A stretch of 64,000 bases of DNA from Fragilaria crotonensis (Eukaryota; Bacillariophyta; Fragilariophyceae; Fragilariales; Fragilariaceae), in contig JAKSYS010000229.1 in assembly GCA_022925895.1 (NCBI GenBank), positions 18,996 through 82,995 of the forward strand. Direction: 5' to 3'. Shown piece by piece: positions 34,157-43,151 of the stretch. Positions within the stretch are counted from its first letter, which is position 1, and each line of letters opens with the position of its first letter. The notes beneath the pieces are model-generated. The model saw nothing but the letters and a program-made list of their open reading frames with translations. It made no database searches and was not told where the DNA came from. A program made the position numbers and the translations under genes.

Positions 34157-34769
34157 AATACTGTCGTACTGTATACTGGAATACAATTACAATGATGTCA
34201 AGCTGCGAAGCCGCCAAAATATAGTATCTTGTGCGCAGGGTCATATGTATTCATACTTCGAATGGTATCTTGAGCGGCCCCGCTCGATATTCCTATTTAT
34301 TTCGTGTTTGATTGGGAGGAGTGGCTGCAGGCACATGTCCGGTATCCGATTGAAAATTACCAATGCTGTATATCTGTATGAAAATTCGCACCCTCGCTGT
34401 TCAGGGAATTTACGTGATACATCTGCGTTATACACTTGTATATACATGTAGTACCAATACTCCACTATTGCTACATACTTATGCAGCTGAAAAAGGTTTG
34501 CTGTATCCATACTTTCTCTGTTCTCTCTTGGTGTCACGTTGGTCGTTTCTGCAATCTTCAAACATCTTCATTGGTCGGATATAGTGCTAACGTGACTTGA
34601 GAGTTGTTAGCTTGAAGGCGTATTGGATGGTTTGATTGAATTTTGTGGGCTTTTGGTTGTCACCATTATTGCATTCTGAAGTATCGGAGTATCGGTGATT
34701 GGAGTACCCCACTTGCCAACTGCCATCATCTATCCTTGCAACGATCAAAACAAAACAAAGTTATACTCA
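34157..34769. promoter_or_regulatory. Upstream region of the MYB gene
   Basis: No gene seen in these ~610 bp. They precede the MYB ATG at 34770 and should include its promoter and 5'UTR (CAAAACAAAACAAAG leader at about 34746-34760). No specific elements assigned. Confidence 0.35.
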
Positions 34770-36311
34770 ATGGCACCCTCGAACCCTTCCGTGCTCTCAC
34801 CATCACCATCACCGGCAGGGACGATTGTGTCTCCGTTGACAAGTATGTCTACGTCTACAAGTACGACGACAAACGCATCGGCTCAGGGGGAATCCAGTGC
34901 TGGCGATTACACCAAGATCACATCACAATCAAACAACAGTGGTCCTGGTCGGTCGGGACGATGGACACCCGATGAAAAACTGTTATTTCTTCATGGGTTG
35001 AAACTTCATGGGAGAGGACGATGGAAAAAGATTAGATATTACCTTCCAACCAGGTACGTTGCAATGTTTGTGTGATGGTCACTTGCATTCCAAACTCCAC
35101 GTCTGGACGTACAAGATGCCAATGATGGTTGGATATATATTTGAATGTCTGCCTCACCATTGCATTGCAACTCACATTTGTGTGCCACCAACCACTTACT
35201 TTTTTCCTTCAGAACGTTAATTCAGATCAAATCACATGCCCAAAAGGTTCTTAAACGAGAAGAACTGGGTGATAATGTGTTTTGCCATTAAAGGCAAATA
35301 AGGATAAGGTCGATGCCTTACTCCAAGACAAGTCGAAATTGTACACCCAACGGATGAACGATCCAGTCACAACTCTCATGTCATCCGATGGTCGATATCA
35401 TACAATATCCATGCAGCAGCAGCAGGAAGAGACTGGATCCAACCATACGGAGCAGCAGCAACCACAACAGGGTCTACCGGTAGTGCAGACGCCATTGCCT
35501 CCTGGATGTACGTAATTGTCATTCGGTGCCATGTTTGTTGCCGATATGTCATTGGAATAAAATTTCATTGTGTAGTTTTTCTCACCAAACCTACTCGCAT
35601 TACCACAGACCCCAGTCCTTACTACAAGACAACAGTTGGAAATCCAAGCCATCCAATGCCTCCTTATGTGTTCCAGACACCAGGAACAAACCATCCTCCA
35701 GATCCGATGCAACAACAATTATCCTCGGCAGGACCACCGTACAATACTAATCATCATCACCACAATCAACACCATTCGCCAATGATGCACCATCATCATC
35801 ATCCACAACAATCACAGCAGCAACAACACCACTACTACAATCATTCCCATCAACAACATCATCATCCACCACAACATGGCATTGTCCATCACATATCACC
35901 ACCCCATCCATCGCCACACCAACAACCACAACACTTGACGCCACCGCCATTCAAGGTGGGTGTCCAAGATGGCGCCAGGATGGTACCTGATGCCGGAACG
36001 GCTGCAGCACCCACAAACCGCCCTACTGAGCAGCAGCAGCAACAACAACTGTTCCCCCGAGTCTTACATCCACAAACACCGCAATCACGCAAGGCTACGA
36101 CAGATGCATTGGCGGCGGCTGCTCTGTGTGAATTGTTTCGTGGTGAAGGCAAGGATCTTGAACAAGTGAGTGTATAAGTGACAAAAAGTGACGCACACTT
36201 GCTTTCACGCGCACGCAGATCCCCTATTCACGTGTTCTTCACGACATTTTGCCACACATGACATTCAGTCGTCACCCATCACGAATGCTATTTGGTTTCT
36301 TGCCTGGTTAA
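34770..36311 (+). CDS. SHAQKYF-type single-repeat MYB transcription factor, His/Gln-rich
   Basis: ATG 34770. Exons inferred: 34770-35053, 35213-35507, 35609-36165 and 36219-36311, with GTACGT or GTGAGT donors and compatible phases. The MYB/SANT domain spans exon 1-2: SGRWTPDEKLLFLHGLKLHG, RWKKIRYYLPTR | TLIQIKSHAQKVLKREE, a SHAQK[V/Y] variant of the plant and stramenopile CCA1/REVEILLE-like class. A TTTT run at 35280-35283 is one T short, breaking the frame before PLKANKDKV. Exon 3 is Pro/Gln/His-rich, with clusters of four or five His. Exon 4 adds IPYSRVLHDILPHMTFSRH and a natural stop; if the last intron is not spliced the protein ends at 36177. Nuclear DNA-binding regulator, possibly light or clock related by family analogy only. 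Confidence 0.75.
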
Positions 36312-36430: not shown

Positions 36431-39008
36431 TCAAGGTACGATCCTACCCACCAAATAGTAGGTTTGACATTCATGGACCAACACTTGTACCAGCTTGCCA
36501 CTCAATTCATCAATATCACCATCACAATAACAAATGTACCCCTGCGTCGTTCGTCCCATCACTTGTGTGGGGACCTTGATGTTGCGCTCTTCCACCAAAA
36601 TCTCCACAGTCCGTCCCAACATGCGTTGTCGCCGTTCGGCGGCGTGCAATTTGTTTAATACGTTGATTCGTCCCAGGCGTTCTTGCTTGACACTATCATC
36701 GATTTGATTCGTCCAAACGGCGGCAGGAGTGTTGGGGCGGGGAGAGTAGGCAGCAGTATTGACAGAATCGAATTTCACAAGAGTCATCAAATCTAAAGTA
36801 TCTTGGAAGTCCTGCTCTGTTTCCCCGGGGAAACCGACAATGACATCAGCTGTAATCGACGCTTCGGGAAGACGCTGATGATGACATGGGGACAACGTTT
36901 GTGTGAGAACTTTGGGGAAGCCAAGTAACCGCATCGTTGCGTTTGCATTCATAATCCTCGCTTACCGTTCGAATCCTATCCACAATCATGAGATACTTTT
37001 CTCTTGTATGACCGCGACCCATGGCAGCCAGAATCGCATTGGAACCGGACTGGAAGGGTACATGAAAGGAATGACAGGCGGAGGGGGTTTCCGCCACGGC
37101 ATCAATGACGCCCAAACTCATGTAGCGAGGATGCGATGTTACGAATCTCAAGCGCTCCAACCCCGGGACTGATCCTGCGGTACGAATCAGATCTGAAAAT
37201 CGACGTTTCGGAACCATATCACGACCGTAGGCGCTATCGACACAAATGAATTACGGAGCGAGAGATGTGAGTGCGAGGAATGCATACAGTCGCAGTGGCA
37301 GTCGTCAGAGTAGCGTCATACGTACTCAATGTTTTGGCCCAACAAGGTAATTTCTTTATAACCTTGACTGACGAGCTGGGTAATCTCCGAAATGATACTT
37401 TCAACAGGTCGACTTTGCTCCACTCCACGGGTAGTTGGTACGATGCAGAACGTGCATCGCTCATTACAGCCATAAATGACATTGACCCACCCAGCCACGG
37501 AGCTTGAACGACGAGGTTTAGTGGAGTCTTCCATGATATGAGCGGCATCCGTCGCTACGACTTGGTTACCATTCGACACATCCTCCAACAAATCTGCCAA
37601 TCGGTTAGCATATTGCGGTCCCATGACAAGATCAACTTCTGGTGCTTTTCTCAACAACGCTTCTCCTTCTTGCTGAGCGACACATCCAGCAACGACAATG
37701 ACAACATCTTCTCCTTCCCGTTTTCTTTTGGCATGAGGACCAATACGACTGTAGACTTTCTGTTCGGCATGATCCCGAATGGAACACGTGTTGAGAACTA
37801 CCAGATCTGGTTTTTTGAATTTCGTTTCTTCGTCTGGACCAAGTTTTCGGATGCCCAACGCCTGCAATTGTCCTTCCATGCGTTCACTATCGGCCTGATT
37901 CATTTGGCACCCCATGGTTTCCATCACATACGTCAAGTCCGGTCTAGTAGAAGTGGCAGTAGTCGCAGCACCACTAGTGCTGCTGTCATCATCATCATTG
38001 GAAGACGACATCGTCTTCGGTAATAGTAGAGCTCCACCTAAGATACCTTGACCTGCAATTCCAATCTTGTTGCGGGGTCTCGTTGCGGCCATTTTGCGAA
38101 CATCCACCATGACATCGGCAACCTGGACCAGGTGGATGCCACGCACCGATTCGACCATGACAATGTCACCCGGCTTGTGTAAAAGACATGATACCAAAGT
38201 ATATGCAATGATGAGGAAATTTGATGAGGGTTTTGAATGGATTTGTTCATGTTAAATCATGAATGTAACGAGTTGTTCAACTCCAATCGTCTGCTCCGCA
38301 CATCCACTCACCTTGGTATTCATGTGCATGATCTTTTTCCTCGCATCTGGAGGAAGGATTGGATCTAAATGATGATCGGCATGATCATCACTTTCATCGT
38401 CATGATCACGGTCAACATCTGTACTGCTGCTTTTGCTGTTTGCATTTGTATTCACATTGACATTCACCCATCCGATACACCCCTTCTCTTCTCTCGTAAT
38501 GGCACAATTCGAAATTTGTAATGCCAATTCATCAAAGGCCAACGCTGCAGTTTTGAGCCCGTACAGTGTTTGAGTGGCCAATTCTTCTGTCGCAAAGAGA
38601 ATGTGATTCAAACGAATTGCCGTCAAATGCTGACGACCCGAAGATACAATTTTACGTGAATCCAATTCTTCACCCCGTTGGACGGGATACTTTGGCATCC
38701 TTTTGTTTCTTGATGATGTTGTTGTAGAAGTGGTTGATGTTGTAGCAGATGTTGTTGTTGCATATGCTTCTGCTGAAGATGATGTCCTTGGTACTTTATA
38801 GTCGGAAGACACCATGGCAAGCGATGATGCTATGGTACGTCCGTGTCGGACAGCGTCAACATCTACATTACCATCAGTCTTCAGAACTGGAATAGCAATA
38901 GGAACATTACAGTGACGTTTCAGGACTGACACAGTCACGAAGCTCTCACTAGGAACCAGTAGCAGAATCGACGCCGATATTAATAACACAAAAAAAGCTC
39001 ATCGTCAT
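36431..39008 (-). CDS. Parvulin (PpiC)-MiaB fusion: tRNA methylthiotransferase
   Basis: Exons: about 39008-38312, 38173-37326, 37233-36966 and 36874-36431, with introns of 138, 92 and 91 bp. The C-terminal ~500 residues are a MiaB/CDK5RAP1 enzyme that methylthiolates i6A37 of tRNA. The UPF0004 domain has three Cys ([33 protein letters not shown]), the radical-SAM motif is CNERCTFC, then LLGQNIDAYGRDM (across intron 2), [14 protein letters not shown] and a TRAM domain. Before it, exon 1-2 encode a parvulin-type prolyl isomerase-like domain: [31 protein letters not shown], then an acidic insert, LPPDARKKI and [21 protein letters not shown]. The N-terminus is a signal-like hydrophobic segment ([17 protein letters not shown]), suggesting an organelle target. 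The initiating ATG (39008 or 39002) is in frame only if the A7 run 38990-38996 is one base shorter. Confidence 0.85.
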
Positions 39009-39538
39009 TCTCGAAACAACCCGCATGTTCTTTGTTTGGGATCAGCAAGTTCGTGCACATACAGTTTTTTCCGTCGTGTCGTCATGTCCATCAAATACGG
39101 GCACAGTACTCGTTCTTACCGAACCGTTGTTCATGGGCTGTAGACGTACTGTATGTATGTATGTATAGATGTATACACATCAGCATGTTTGTATGGGCAG
39201 TAGATGTTGGTATTAGGTACTCGTATCCTCTAATTGTACTTTGTACTGGAGTACCATCTGCCGTACGCATATACTGGAGTACCTGTACTATTGTACATGG
39301 TACTGTGTAATATATGTATGAAATGATAGAGGTCTATGTTTAGTACGTCGTAAAGCCTACTTGTACCTGTACTCCGAGCATACAATTCGAATGGCTGCGG
39401 ATGTTCTCCAGGAAGGTCCGGCCCAAGCACGTTTCGCGATTAACAGATGTACCTTAAGGATGTGCGCGCCAGCCAATGACCGGCCGGCGTGATGAGAGCT
39501 TGTTAGGATCTTTGTCGTATCATTCGAGCTGGCAAGGT
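39009..39538. other. Intergenic region upstream of the parvulin-MiaB gene
   Basis: No gene seen. A dense cluster of GTACTGGAGTAC/GTACCTGTAC-type palindromes lies at about 39236-39305, and GTATGTATGTATAGATGTATAC repeats near 39150-39172. Confidence 0.5.
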
Positions 39539-39803
39539 TCAGCAAATGTCAGCAGATTTCTTTTTCGTCAGCAAATGTCAGCAGATTTGCTTTTCGTCAG
39601 CAAATGTCAGCAAACTTGATTCTCGTCAGCAAACGTCAGAAGATGTCAGCATCACCGTAGCTTTTGTACTGGAAAAAACTCGTTTTCGTCATCATATGTC
39701 AGAAAATGTCAGCAGATTCGAATTTCGTCAGCAGACGTCAGCAAATTCGTTTTTTGTCAGCGGATGTCAGCAGATCTGTCTTTTCGTCAGCAAGTGTCAG
39801 CAA
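39539..39803. repeat. 29-bp minisatellite (GTCAGCAGAT...CGTCAGCAAAT)
   Basis: Degenerate units of 29 bp each contain two GTCAGC(A/G) boxes separated by a T-rich spacer. Three fairly clean units start at 39548. An interruption follows at about 39637-39690, then three more units. Because 29 is not a multiple of three, the reading frame rotates unit by unit. The open plus-strand frame through it (39546-39815) is therefore a repeat artefact, not a conserved gene. Confidence 0.85.
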
Positions 39804-40649: not shown

Positions 40650-41165
40650 TTAAGAGGGGTTGTTTCCCACTCCACCCATCATGCCCTTCGGAGCAGGAGC
40701 AGGCAGAGGCTGCTTGAGATCCCGTCCACCCATCGTGCCCTTTGATGGCCCAGGAACCTTTGGCGCCTTGAGAGCCCGTCCACCCATCATAGTGACCTTT
40801 GATGGTCCAGGAATTTTGGGCTCCCCCTTGGTGAGGGTCCGTCCTCCCATCATAGTGCCCTTTGGTGGTCCAGGAATTTTGGGCTCCCCCTTGGTCAGGG
40901 CACGTCCTCGCATCATAGTGCCCTTTGATGGTCGAGGAATTTTGGGCTCCCCCTTGGTGAGAGCCCGTCCACCCATCATAGTGCCCTTAGGTGGTCCAGA
41001 AATTTTGGGCTCCCCCTTGGTCAGGGCACGTCCTCGCATCATAGTTCCCTTTGATGGTCCAGGAATTTTGGGCTCCCCCTTGGTGAGGGTCCGGACTTGA
41101 TCATCGGCGGCGACGGCACCTTGAGTGAAAATGCCGAGGATGGCGAAGAAAAGGCTGAGCTTCAT
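40650..41165 (-). CDS. Secreted RXL-repeat protein, silaffin-precursor-like
   Basis: ATG 41165 begins MKLSLFFAILGIFTQG, a clear signal peptide ending AVA|ADDQ. The rest is almost wholly seven ~21-residue repeats of the form R-(A/T/D)-L-TKGEPKIPGPSKGTMM-GG, the last two shortened and diverged. Every unit begins with an R-x-L tripeptide (RTL, RAL, RAL, RAL, RTL, RAL, RDL). RXL is an established proteolytic cleavage motif in precursors of diatom silica-forming peptides. The intervening peptides are rich in Lys, Pro, Gly and Ser, with paired Met and no Cys. By analogy this may release small basic peptides that act in the silica wall, but the Ser content is lower than in classical silaffins, so this is an inference. 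The encoding DNA is a 63-bp repeat. Confidence 0.75.
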   Translation of the reverse strand: MKLSLFFAILGIFTQGAVAADDQVRTLTKGEPKIPGPSKGTMMRGRALTKGEPKISGPPKGTMMGGRALTKGEPKIPRPSKGTMMRGRALTKGEPKIPGPPKGTMMGGRTLTKGEPKIPGPSKVTMMGGRALKAPKVPGPSKGTMGGRDLKQPLPAPAPKGMMGGVGNNPS

Positions 41166-43151
41166 GGTACAGACGACGATAATCACTGATTTCCGGAAAT
41201 TGTGATTTATGAGTCTGGCACACGGCGTTGACAGTGTCTTGTCAGTGTTATGACTTGGTGACCCTTCGTAGAGAAAAAACCCTCGAATAACGAATTTGCA
41301 GCGAGCGTAAAGCGGTTCCGCATGCGGCTTAAATCTTGGAAATCGAAGTACTCAGGTACACTTGATATCTAATAGAATTATGTGCAGTACATGTACACCA
41401 TCCCATTTCGGAGAATTACAGAGCATAAAAAAAAGTGTCCACTGATTCTATCTACGCTTGTGTATAAACAATTCGCAACACCCGACATATTTTCCTAAGA
41501 CTCGGTGGTTAAATGCCTTTCCACTTATAGCAACGCAGCCACAAGGGTTGCATCAAAGGTCAGTGGACATCTGGGAGGGTCGTCACATTTCCGAAGGATT
41601 TCAAAGTTGTCAGAAAGTTCTGTCGAATTAACGTCTTCTGTATGCCTGGCTTGACGAAAGGTATTCACTCGGGTCATCGTTCGCGTGTGAGCCAATATGA
41701 ATTTCAGTAGCGAATCCCGAATGCACGCATACATTGTGGACACAATTTTATAGGAGTCATTTACACCTATCTATGTAATATATACAGTAGGCATTTTTGG
41801 ATGGGTACTGGGTATGTTTTCAGGGCTACCCTGTACTACGAGTACTTGTTTGCAGCCAGCAATTGAGTTCTGATCTGATATCGGATCCACTGGACCGGTA
41901 CAGTAGTAGGATGTAGTAAGTAATGTAATGTTCAGTAGTGGTTGATACAGAACAAAACCTCAGTTCTTGAATGTGTGAACCTAATGATTTGTGACATCTA
42001 ATGGAGATCAATCCAAGGTTTGAAATATGAAGGCTTACATTTTCAAACTAAATCAATATCAGCCAGTACTAGCTAGAGTATAGAGTCCAACGATTGCTTT
42101 AGTAGGTAGAATCTAAACACGAACAAGAACAAACGGACACCGGACTTGTTACTAACAAGTCCAGTGCAGAGAAGCATGCTGGTGGCTGTTCATTACTCAT
42201 GGTGTGGTTGGCTGGCTCAACTTAATGACACATGCTGGATCTGCCATCAATGATTGCCATTGCCATTCTATCTACTGACGGCGCGCCCTCTGCTGTCCAG
42301 CATGGTCACTTTTCATGCCGCCATTGTCATCCTTCTCAGCATCCAAATCAATCCATTGTTCCTGTTGACAAAGTGTCACCAGCATTATAAACTTCTAACA
42401 GGGTGGCAGATCAATACAGGAACTATGTTTGAAGGTGTCTGAAATCAATGATAGCTACCCGCCATACATTTAACTCATAGCAATATGCATTGCTCCACTG
42501 TTTGCTGGATACCTTCAAGGACCAAGAAGTGAACTTCAATGGTTAGTAGCACTACTACTTTATTAGTAGTCAGCATGATCAGAACTGTATAACAATTATT
42601 GCACCAATATTGATGCTGGCTTCTCGGTAGACGTCTATATTTTTTGGATTGCTAACTAATTCAATAATTGCTTTCACATCTTCGATATTGTCTCCATCTC
42701 TGACTCCCACACCGGATATTCATACTTACATCTTACATCGGGTACCAGTATCGGGTGTTATATGTTATATACATAGAGAGGAGTGAATGTCTCTCAAGTC
42801 TGACTTAAAAAATTCCCTTACATACGGGTACACGGTAGACTCCATACAAACGAAAAAAGACTACCCGGTAGGGAGAGAGTAGCTGTCCGGCTCGCATGCT
42901 TTATTTTCGCACGCCCACCGGCCGTCAAATCGTAATCGAAGTCGAACGTCTAACGAGATATTAACTGTTTTATTCACTCTCTAAAACGTCACGTTGTAGC
43001 GATAAGCAAGACCCGAACGGTATCAAGCCGTTCCATCGATTTATCACTTGTCCTGATTTAAGTATGCTCGTGAGGACGTTCCTCGGCACCTCCGATTCGA
43101 ACACTCATCTTTAAGCGTATATGTGTTATCATCATACAACCTAGGAATGCA
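41166..43151. other. Gene-free stretch of about 2 kb
   Basis: No gene seen. The portion just left of 43152 should contain the promoter of the propeller/fasciclin gene. ORFs at 41525-41743, 41826-42011 and 42254-42442 are short and without features. The region 42160-42560 has a texture like that of 15-16.8 kb and might be related repeat DNA, but I could not align it by eye. Confidence 0.45.

Follow-up and report, generated by a model that had tools for sequence, protein, structure and literature searches.

The locus and its copies in the same genome

The window, that is the whole stretch of 64,000 nucleotides of Fragilaria crotonensis DNA analyzed here, carries on its minus strand (36431-39026) a gene of four exons and three introns, every intron bounded by GT and AG, which can be read as a plastid-type presequence (judged by eye), a parvulin-like domain, a linker and a MiaB region. 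The spliced reading frame starting at 38998 comprises 748 codons, and all residue numbers are counted from this position. A signal-peptide-like N-terminus (38942-39026, also by eye) ends before the Phe of an ASAFAP-like SES-F motif. The exon 1 portion of the parvulin-like domain lies at 38312-38647 (residues 118-229), with LNHILF, SNC, GCIGWV and ILPPDA as its landmarks and, according to alignments, an acidic, Asn-rich insert at residues 183-210 or, in a second alignment, 184-211 (38369-38452). Intron 1 (38174-38311; 138 nt, phase 0) falls within the parvulin-like part, the remainder of which is found in exon 2 (38081-38173, residues 230-260); the frame of exon 1 hits a stop inside this intron. 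The MiaB region occupies 37326-37939 of exon 2 (UPF0004 with Cys 318, 359 and 393, and CNERCTFC), exon 3 (36966-37233, radical SAM core) and exon 4 (36431-36874), which holds the end of the radical SAM core, the TRAM domain and the stop. Splicing of intron 2 (37234-37325; 92 nt, phase 2) restores LLGQNIDAYGRD, and intron 3 (36875-36965) has 91 nt and phase 0. The original prediction had the strand and the coordinates right, with the stop at 36431, and the spliced model bears out both the phase 0 joining of intron 1 inside the parvulin part and the acidic insert that had been noticed there.

The source assembly (62.1 Mb, 881 contigs) holds two more fusions beyond the window copy. The one on contig C19 is an allele, with 95% DNA identity over the aligned region and the same introns. 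In the window, one T within a run of seven puts the upstream ATGs out of register with the main frame; the C19 allele has six T in that run and reads through in frame from its counterpart of the ATG at 39026, and its exon 4 has a 3-nt gap and a 1-nt gap of its own. These differences may represent true alleles or assembly errors.

The strongest evidence for the fusion comes from the homologue on contig C65 (L022:2203-4083), in which a single intronless open frame of 627 codons holds the presequence, the parvulin-like domain and MiaB, unbroken across the site of intron 1, so that no splice model is needed to join the two parts. The claim that parvulin and MiaB form one gene is therefore confirmed, and a wrong splice model merging two neighbouring genes, for which the position of intron 1 inside the parvulin part could be adduced, is rejected by this single frame as hardly credible. 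The C65 and window proteins share 43% identity over 650 aa, parvulin part included, and a DNA search of the genome returned no second close copy of the C65 region. A tree of 35 rows groups the two fusions by their MiaB parts as sisters (support 100/100), and they share a long branch. Judging from these sequences, the fusion is probably older than the split between the window and C65 genes, and the joining looks old and kept rather than artefactual.

The notion that C65 is a foreign contig was considered and set aside, its composition lying within the spread of 5-kb chunks of the window, which is not proof. Matches to the Rpb1 family were found on four contigs (C265, C881, C636 and C318, the C636 match containing stops), and, given the number of Rpb1-type genes expected per eukaryote, this count fits one nuclear genome better than two. 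Whether or not C65 is foreign, the fusion is present in two divergent genes.

The surroundings of the gene in the window are rich in repeats on one side. Upstream, at 39539-39802, lie two arrays of a similar 29-bp unit (3.7 and 3.6 copies), the unit of the first being TCAGCAAATGTCAGCAGATTTGATTTTCG. A minus-strand frame at 40650-41351 starts, by eye, like a signal peptide and contains 21-aa repeats resembling KGEPKIPGPSKGTMMRGRALT; these are encoded by a tandem repeat of a 63-bp unit at 40769-41093, present in 5.2 copies. On the plus strand at 34680-36177, gene-like frames that begin like a MYB protein and include a long stretch rich in Gln and His (by eye) stand tail-to-tail with the fusion gene.

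The MiaB and parvulin-like parts

By family assignment from profile scores, the encoded enzyme is the i6A37 tRNA methylthiotransferase MiaB. Against TIGR01574, the MiaB equivalog of NCBIfam (cut-off 355.3), the fusion protein scores 430.4 bits in the window copy and 439.9 bits in the C65 homologue, and the window fusion scores under the NCBIfam cut-offs for MtaB and RimO. The Pfam search that had been suggested together with the original prediction places UPF0004 at residues 311-414 (94.3 bits), Radical_SAM at 459-630 (94.4) and TRAM at 684-747 (39.2) of the window protein, and all three are over cut-off in both fusions. Six cluster-binding Cys (318, 359, 393 and 465, 469, 472) are conserved in C65, and CNERCTFC corresponds to residues 465-472; the complete MiaB set that had been read from the letters, namely three N-terminal Cys, CNERCTFC and TRAM, is thus present. 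The nearest solved chains by sequence, 7mjz and 7mjv, are both named as the MiaB enzyme. The fusion shares with TIGR01574 proteins the UPF0004, radical SAM and TRAM domains and the three N-terminal Cys together with CxxxCxxC, but adds an N-terminal parvulin-like domain and a plastid-type presequence.

The N-terminal part appears to be a parvulin-like domain that has diverged almost beyond detection, its signal being weak but better than chance. When the window domain was excised, Rotamase (PF00639) was the first Pfam match with 21.9 bits (E 3.6e-4; cut-off 21.7), and in the whole window protein the match at residues 137-248 reached 16.1 bits (E 0.023), below the cut-off. For C65 the Rotamase scores were 19.4 bits excised and 15.4 bits in the whole protein against the same cut-off of 21.7, and in the latter search the unrelated SNAPC5 (16.3 bits) outranked Rotamase, both being below cut-off. 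A hand-edited window domain without the acidic insert scored 26.6 bits; this insert of 28 residues, located just after the GxIGW motif in the window copy, is missing from the C65 homologue. The parvulin-like parts of the window and C65 fusions are 32% identical.

When a profile of the two fusion domains was compared with one of seven parvulins, the probability was 93.7% and, for this single pair, E was 2e-7. The seven comprise three chains from the PDB and four of the genome's own five parvulin loci; the fifth is a near-copy and was left out. With the seven-parvulin profile, the exon 1 frame took first place among the 228 frames of the window that run from stop to stop over at least 80 aa, and in a set of 4002 sequences (both domains and 2000 shuffles of each) the window domain came first and the C65 domain second. 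The window domain outscored all 2000 of its own shuffles; the C65 domain scored 12.8 bits against 11.6 for the best shuffle, a thin margin.

A six-frame Rotamase search of the same genome recovered five standalone loci and none of the three fusion loci, the intronless one included. In PDB searches, the best parvulin for the window domain was PrsA (E 0.58), and an unrelated chain ranked higher (E 0.21); the two-sequence profile of the fusion domains matched one chain only, 3rfw (E 0.88), which is also matched by a plastid parvulin of the same genome, and the C65 domain alone matched a single dynein chain (E 1.1).

It can be seen from a joint alignment that the fusions and the parvulins have an HIL strand, S-x-C, G-x-I-G-W and x-x-H-L in common and in the same order. 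The dual His and the Cys/Asp of the parvulin active site are kept as His...Cys...His in both fusions (2/2) and are likewise present in the seven compared parvulins (7/7), whereas the Met-x3-Phe motif of the proline pocket, found after the G-x-L-G motif in 7/7 parvulins, occurs in 0/2 fusions. The module therefore resembles the parvulin/PpiC family in these ordered motifs and in the top Pfam match of the excised window domain, and differs from it in the missing Met-x3-Phe, in a score at or below threshold, in being joined to MiaB and in the acidic insert of one gene.

The portions of PMC8530231 cited here describe C113, H59, H157 and S154 as the catalytic set of Pin1 and F134, M130 and L122 as its pocket, lined by the Met and Phe. 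In the cited portions of PMC7353009, Escherichia coli PpiC M57A, altered at the Met of Met-x3-Phe, retains substantial isomerase activity and F81A loses activity. The loss of Met-x3-Phe is consequently no proof of inactivity, since M57A is still active; taken together with the inactive F81A, these mutants lead us to regard prolyl isomerase activity of the fused module as unlikely. The absence of the motif from both fusion sequences leans toward the non-catalytic option.

Comparison of the window and C19 alleles showed 5 synonymous and 3 non-synonymous changes in the 143 codons of the parvulin-like part, with a pN/pS of 0.17 (Fisher p 0.014) that rests on these 8 changes only. The 437 codons of the MiaB part, three gapped ones set aside, had 24 synonymous and 8 non-synonymous changes (pN/pS 0.10; Fisher p 4e-10), and the first 117 codons had about 9 and 20, respectively (pN/pS 0.82; Fisher p 0.52). 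Long stretches, for example the linker, are identical between the two copies, which may be due to gene conversion or shared assembly; the counts of allelic changes are for this reason small and not independent.

Searches beyond the genome

Of 135 bacterial relatives, which were selected by narrow peptide patterns and include no cyanobacterium, the MiaB ORFs of the best 80 were examined and none had a parvulin match; in comparisons of the C65 protein with 10 genomes or records, no match in any of the 10 began before residue 163. Within this sample, these two results speak against a bacterial origin of the fusion. The 35-row MiaB tree likewise contains no cyanobacteria, its 31 bacterial rows having been kept from 78 usable loci of the 80; that the MiaB part came from cyanobacteria by way of the plastid is a conjecture based on general resemblance. 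Among plasmids, 102 records had a MiaB-type match, with a top identity of 41% among the matches listed (20 of 102). Viral contigs gave six remote loci, matching only within query residues 403-596, and two further comparisons with viral contigs gave one MiaB locus apiece; viral contigs searched with the parvulin part gave no match. Titles and abstract openings, which do not cover all print, contained no report of a parvulin-MiaB fusion, and so far as this literature goes, the joining of these two known families is new.

Plastid location and candidate role of the module

The fusions are probably plastid-targeted, as judged by eye from their N-termini. The C65 protein begins MKLVVAILALFVSSAAS-F, and the N-terminus of the C19 allele has a hydrophobic stretch ending in ...LLLVPSES-F, both resembling a signal peptide with an ASAFAP motif. 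ASAFAP is given as a motif of complex-plastid targeting signals in the cited part of PMC4329603. One MiaA gene was found, on contig C47 (IPPT 156.2 bits), and it begins MRLSAALFALCMIGATKS-F, also plastid-type by eye. Contig C442 encodes a YgfZ/COG0354-like protein, scoring 31.4 bits against a cut-off of 49, that contains KGCYLGQE, which we take to be a typical YgfZ/COG0354 motif; its N-terminus, again plastid-type, has a hydrophobic stretch that leads into TG-F.

A second type of MiaB, encoded on C873/C796 and presumably of the CDK5RAP1 type, scores 374.1 bits against TIGR01574 and belongs to the same enzyme family as the fusions, but its N-terminus looks mitochondrial (by eye), its MiaB match is preceded by only 69 residues, and it stands apart from the fusions in the tree. 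The earlier idea of an organellar function fits the plastid-type N-termini of both fusions and this separate mitochondrial-looking MiaB, as far as N-termini can be read by eye. This bare copy and the 80 bacterial ORFs lacking a parvulin match also imply that MiaB needs no such domain in general.

According to the cited portions of PMC10002905 and PMC5890173, each turnover of MiaB or RimO is believed to use up the sulfur of the auxiliary [4Fe-4S] cluster, and YgfZ is needed for the activity of Escherichia coli MiaB, with RimO also being YgfZ-dependent; how the two enzymes regain the spent cluster is presented as still open in the former. NifM, a PpiC-domain protein, is described as required for the maturation of the Fe-S protein NifH and as losing function when residues of its isomerase domain are changed (PMC12691677, in part). 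Escherichia coli MiaB co-elutes with PpiB, and less with PpiB R43A, and tagged Escherichia coli PpiC brings down YgfZ (portions of PMC7353009). By analogy with these NifM, PpiB-MiaB and PpiC-YgfZ reports, an Fe-S role of the module would be plausible.

Our preferred reading, to which we assign a probability of about 0.42, is a plastid MiaB with an N-terminal pseudo-isomerase module acting in cis as a binding or assembly platform for folding and Fe-S loading, in which we infer the location, the loss of activity and the Fe-S role. The gene would encode a probably plastid-targeted MiaB bearing an N-terminal parvulin-like module in which prolyl isomerase activity of the classical kind is probably gone. 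As MiaB folds and its [4Fe-4S] clusters are loaded or reloaded, one cluster presumably being consumed per turnover, the module could keep hold in cis of the MiaB chain or of a maturation factor, possibly a YgfZ/COG0354 protein. The reading draws on the two divergent fusions and the allele, the low pN/pS of the module, the missing Met-x3-Phe, the Fe-S precedents and the plastid-type MiaA and YgfZ/COG0354-like proteins of the genome. NifM is likened to the module by function, as a PpiC-type domain tied to the maturation of a [4Fe-4S] protein; however, it works in trans on NifH and requires its isomerase-domain residues (PMC12691677, in part), so the precedent concerns an intact domain. The association of Escherichia coli MiaB with the cyclophilin PpiB, and not with the parvulin PpiC, also counts against the preferred reading, as do the borderline parvulin assignment, the activity of PpiC M57A and the MiaB proteins without such a domain.

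Should the module instead be an active prolyl isomerase, it would fold its own MiaB part as an intramolecular foldase, in keeping with the dual His and Cys kept in both fusions, the remaining activity of PpiC M57A and the co-elution of MiaB with the isomerase PpiB, which is reduced for R43A. We consider this unlikely in view of the missing Met-x3-Phe in both fusions, the Rotamase scores at or under threshold and the 28-residue acidic insert just after GxIGW in the window copy. Ranking below it is a relic or spacer from an old fusion with no remaining role: the weak family score, the lost pocket motif and the low-complexity insert in one of the two genes would agree with decay, but the module can still be made out in both genes, whose products share 43% identity over 650 aa, and shows a pN/pS of 0.17 between alleles. 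Less likely still, the module could bind tRNA, the plastid ribosome or MiaA for hand-over of i6A-tRNA, instead of Fe-S factors; the plastid-type N-terminus (by eye) of the only MiaA gene found is in accord with this, but MiaB probably binds tRNA through its TRAM domain already (PMC7680852, cited portion). Lowest among these we place a pseudo-isomerase that would permanently dock a plastid YgfZ/COG0354 repair factor or an Fe-S carrier, MiaB being reloaded in cis. We know of no other sulfur-inserting radical SAM enzyme that would have an adaptor for cluster repair built into it.

If the platform reading preferred here is right, a MiaB carrying its own folding or binding module would offer a defined segment for seeking the cluster-restoring factor. 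The finding would also mean that the plastids of this alga harbour the ms2i6A37 pathway, and MiaB would join the Fe-S enzymes linked with parvulin-type helpers.

Other loci of the genome concern the same families. A standalone parvulin on C339/C363 (L003/L004) has a plastid-type N-terminus by eye and an intact Met-x3-Phe. At C873:7797-18008 and C796:5008-15333, a YgfZ/IBA57-like gene lies within about 9 kb of the CDK5RAP1-like MiaB, a pairing of an Fe-S factor with its likely client that is seen on both contigs. On C65, a RimO-type methylthiotransferase gene (L022:6347-7769), with 373.9 bits against TIGR01125 in its second frame (cut-off 356.95), is located about 2.3 kb downstream of the MiaB fusion.
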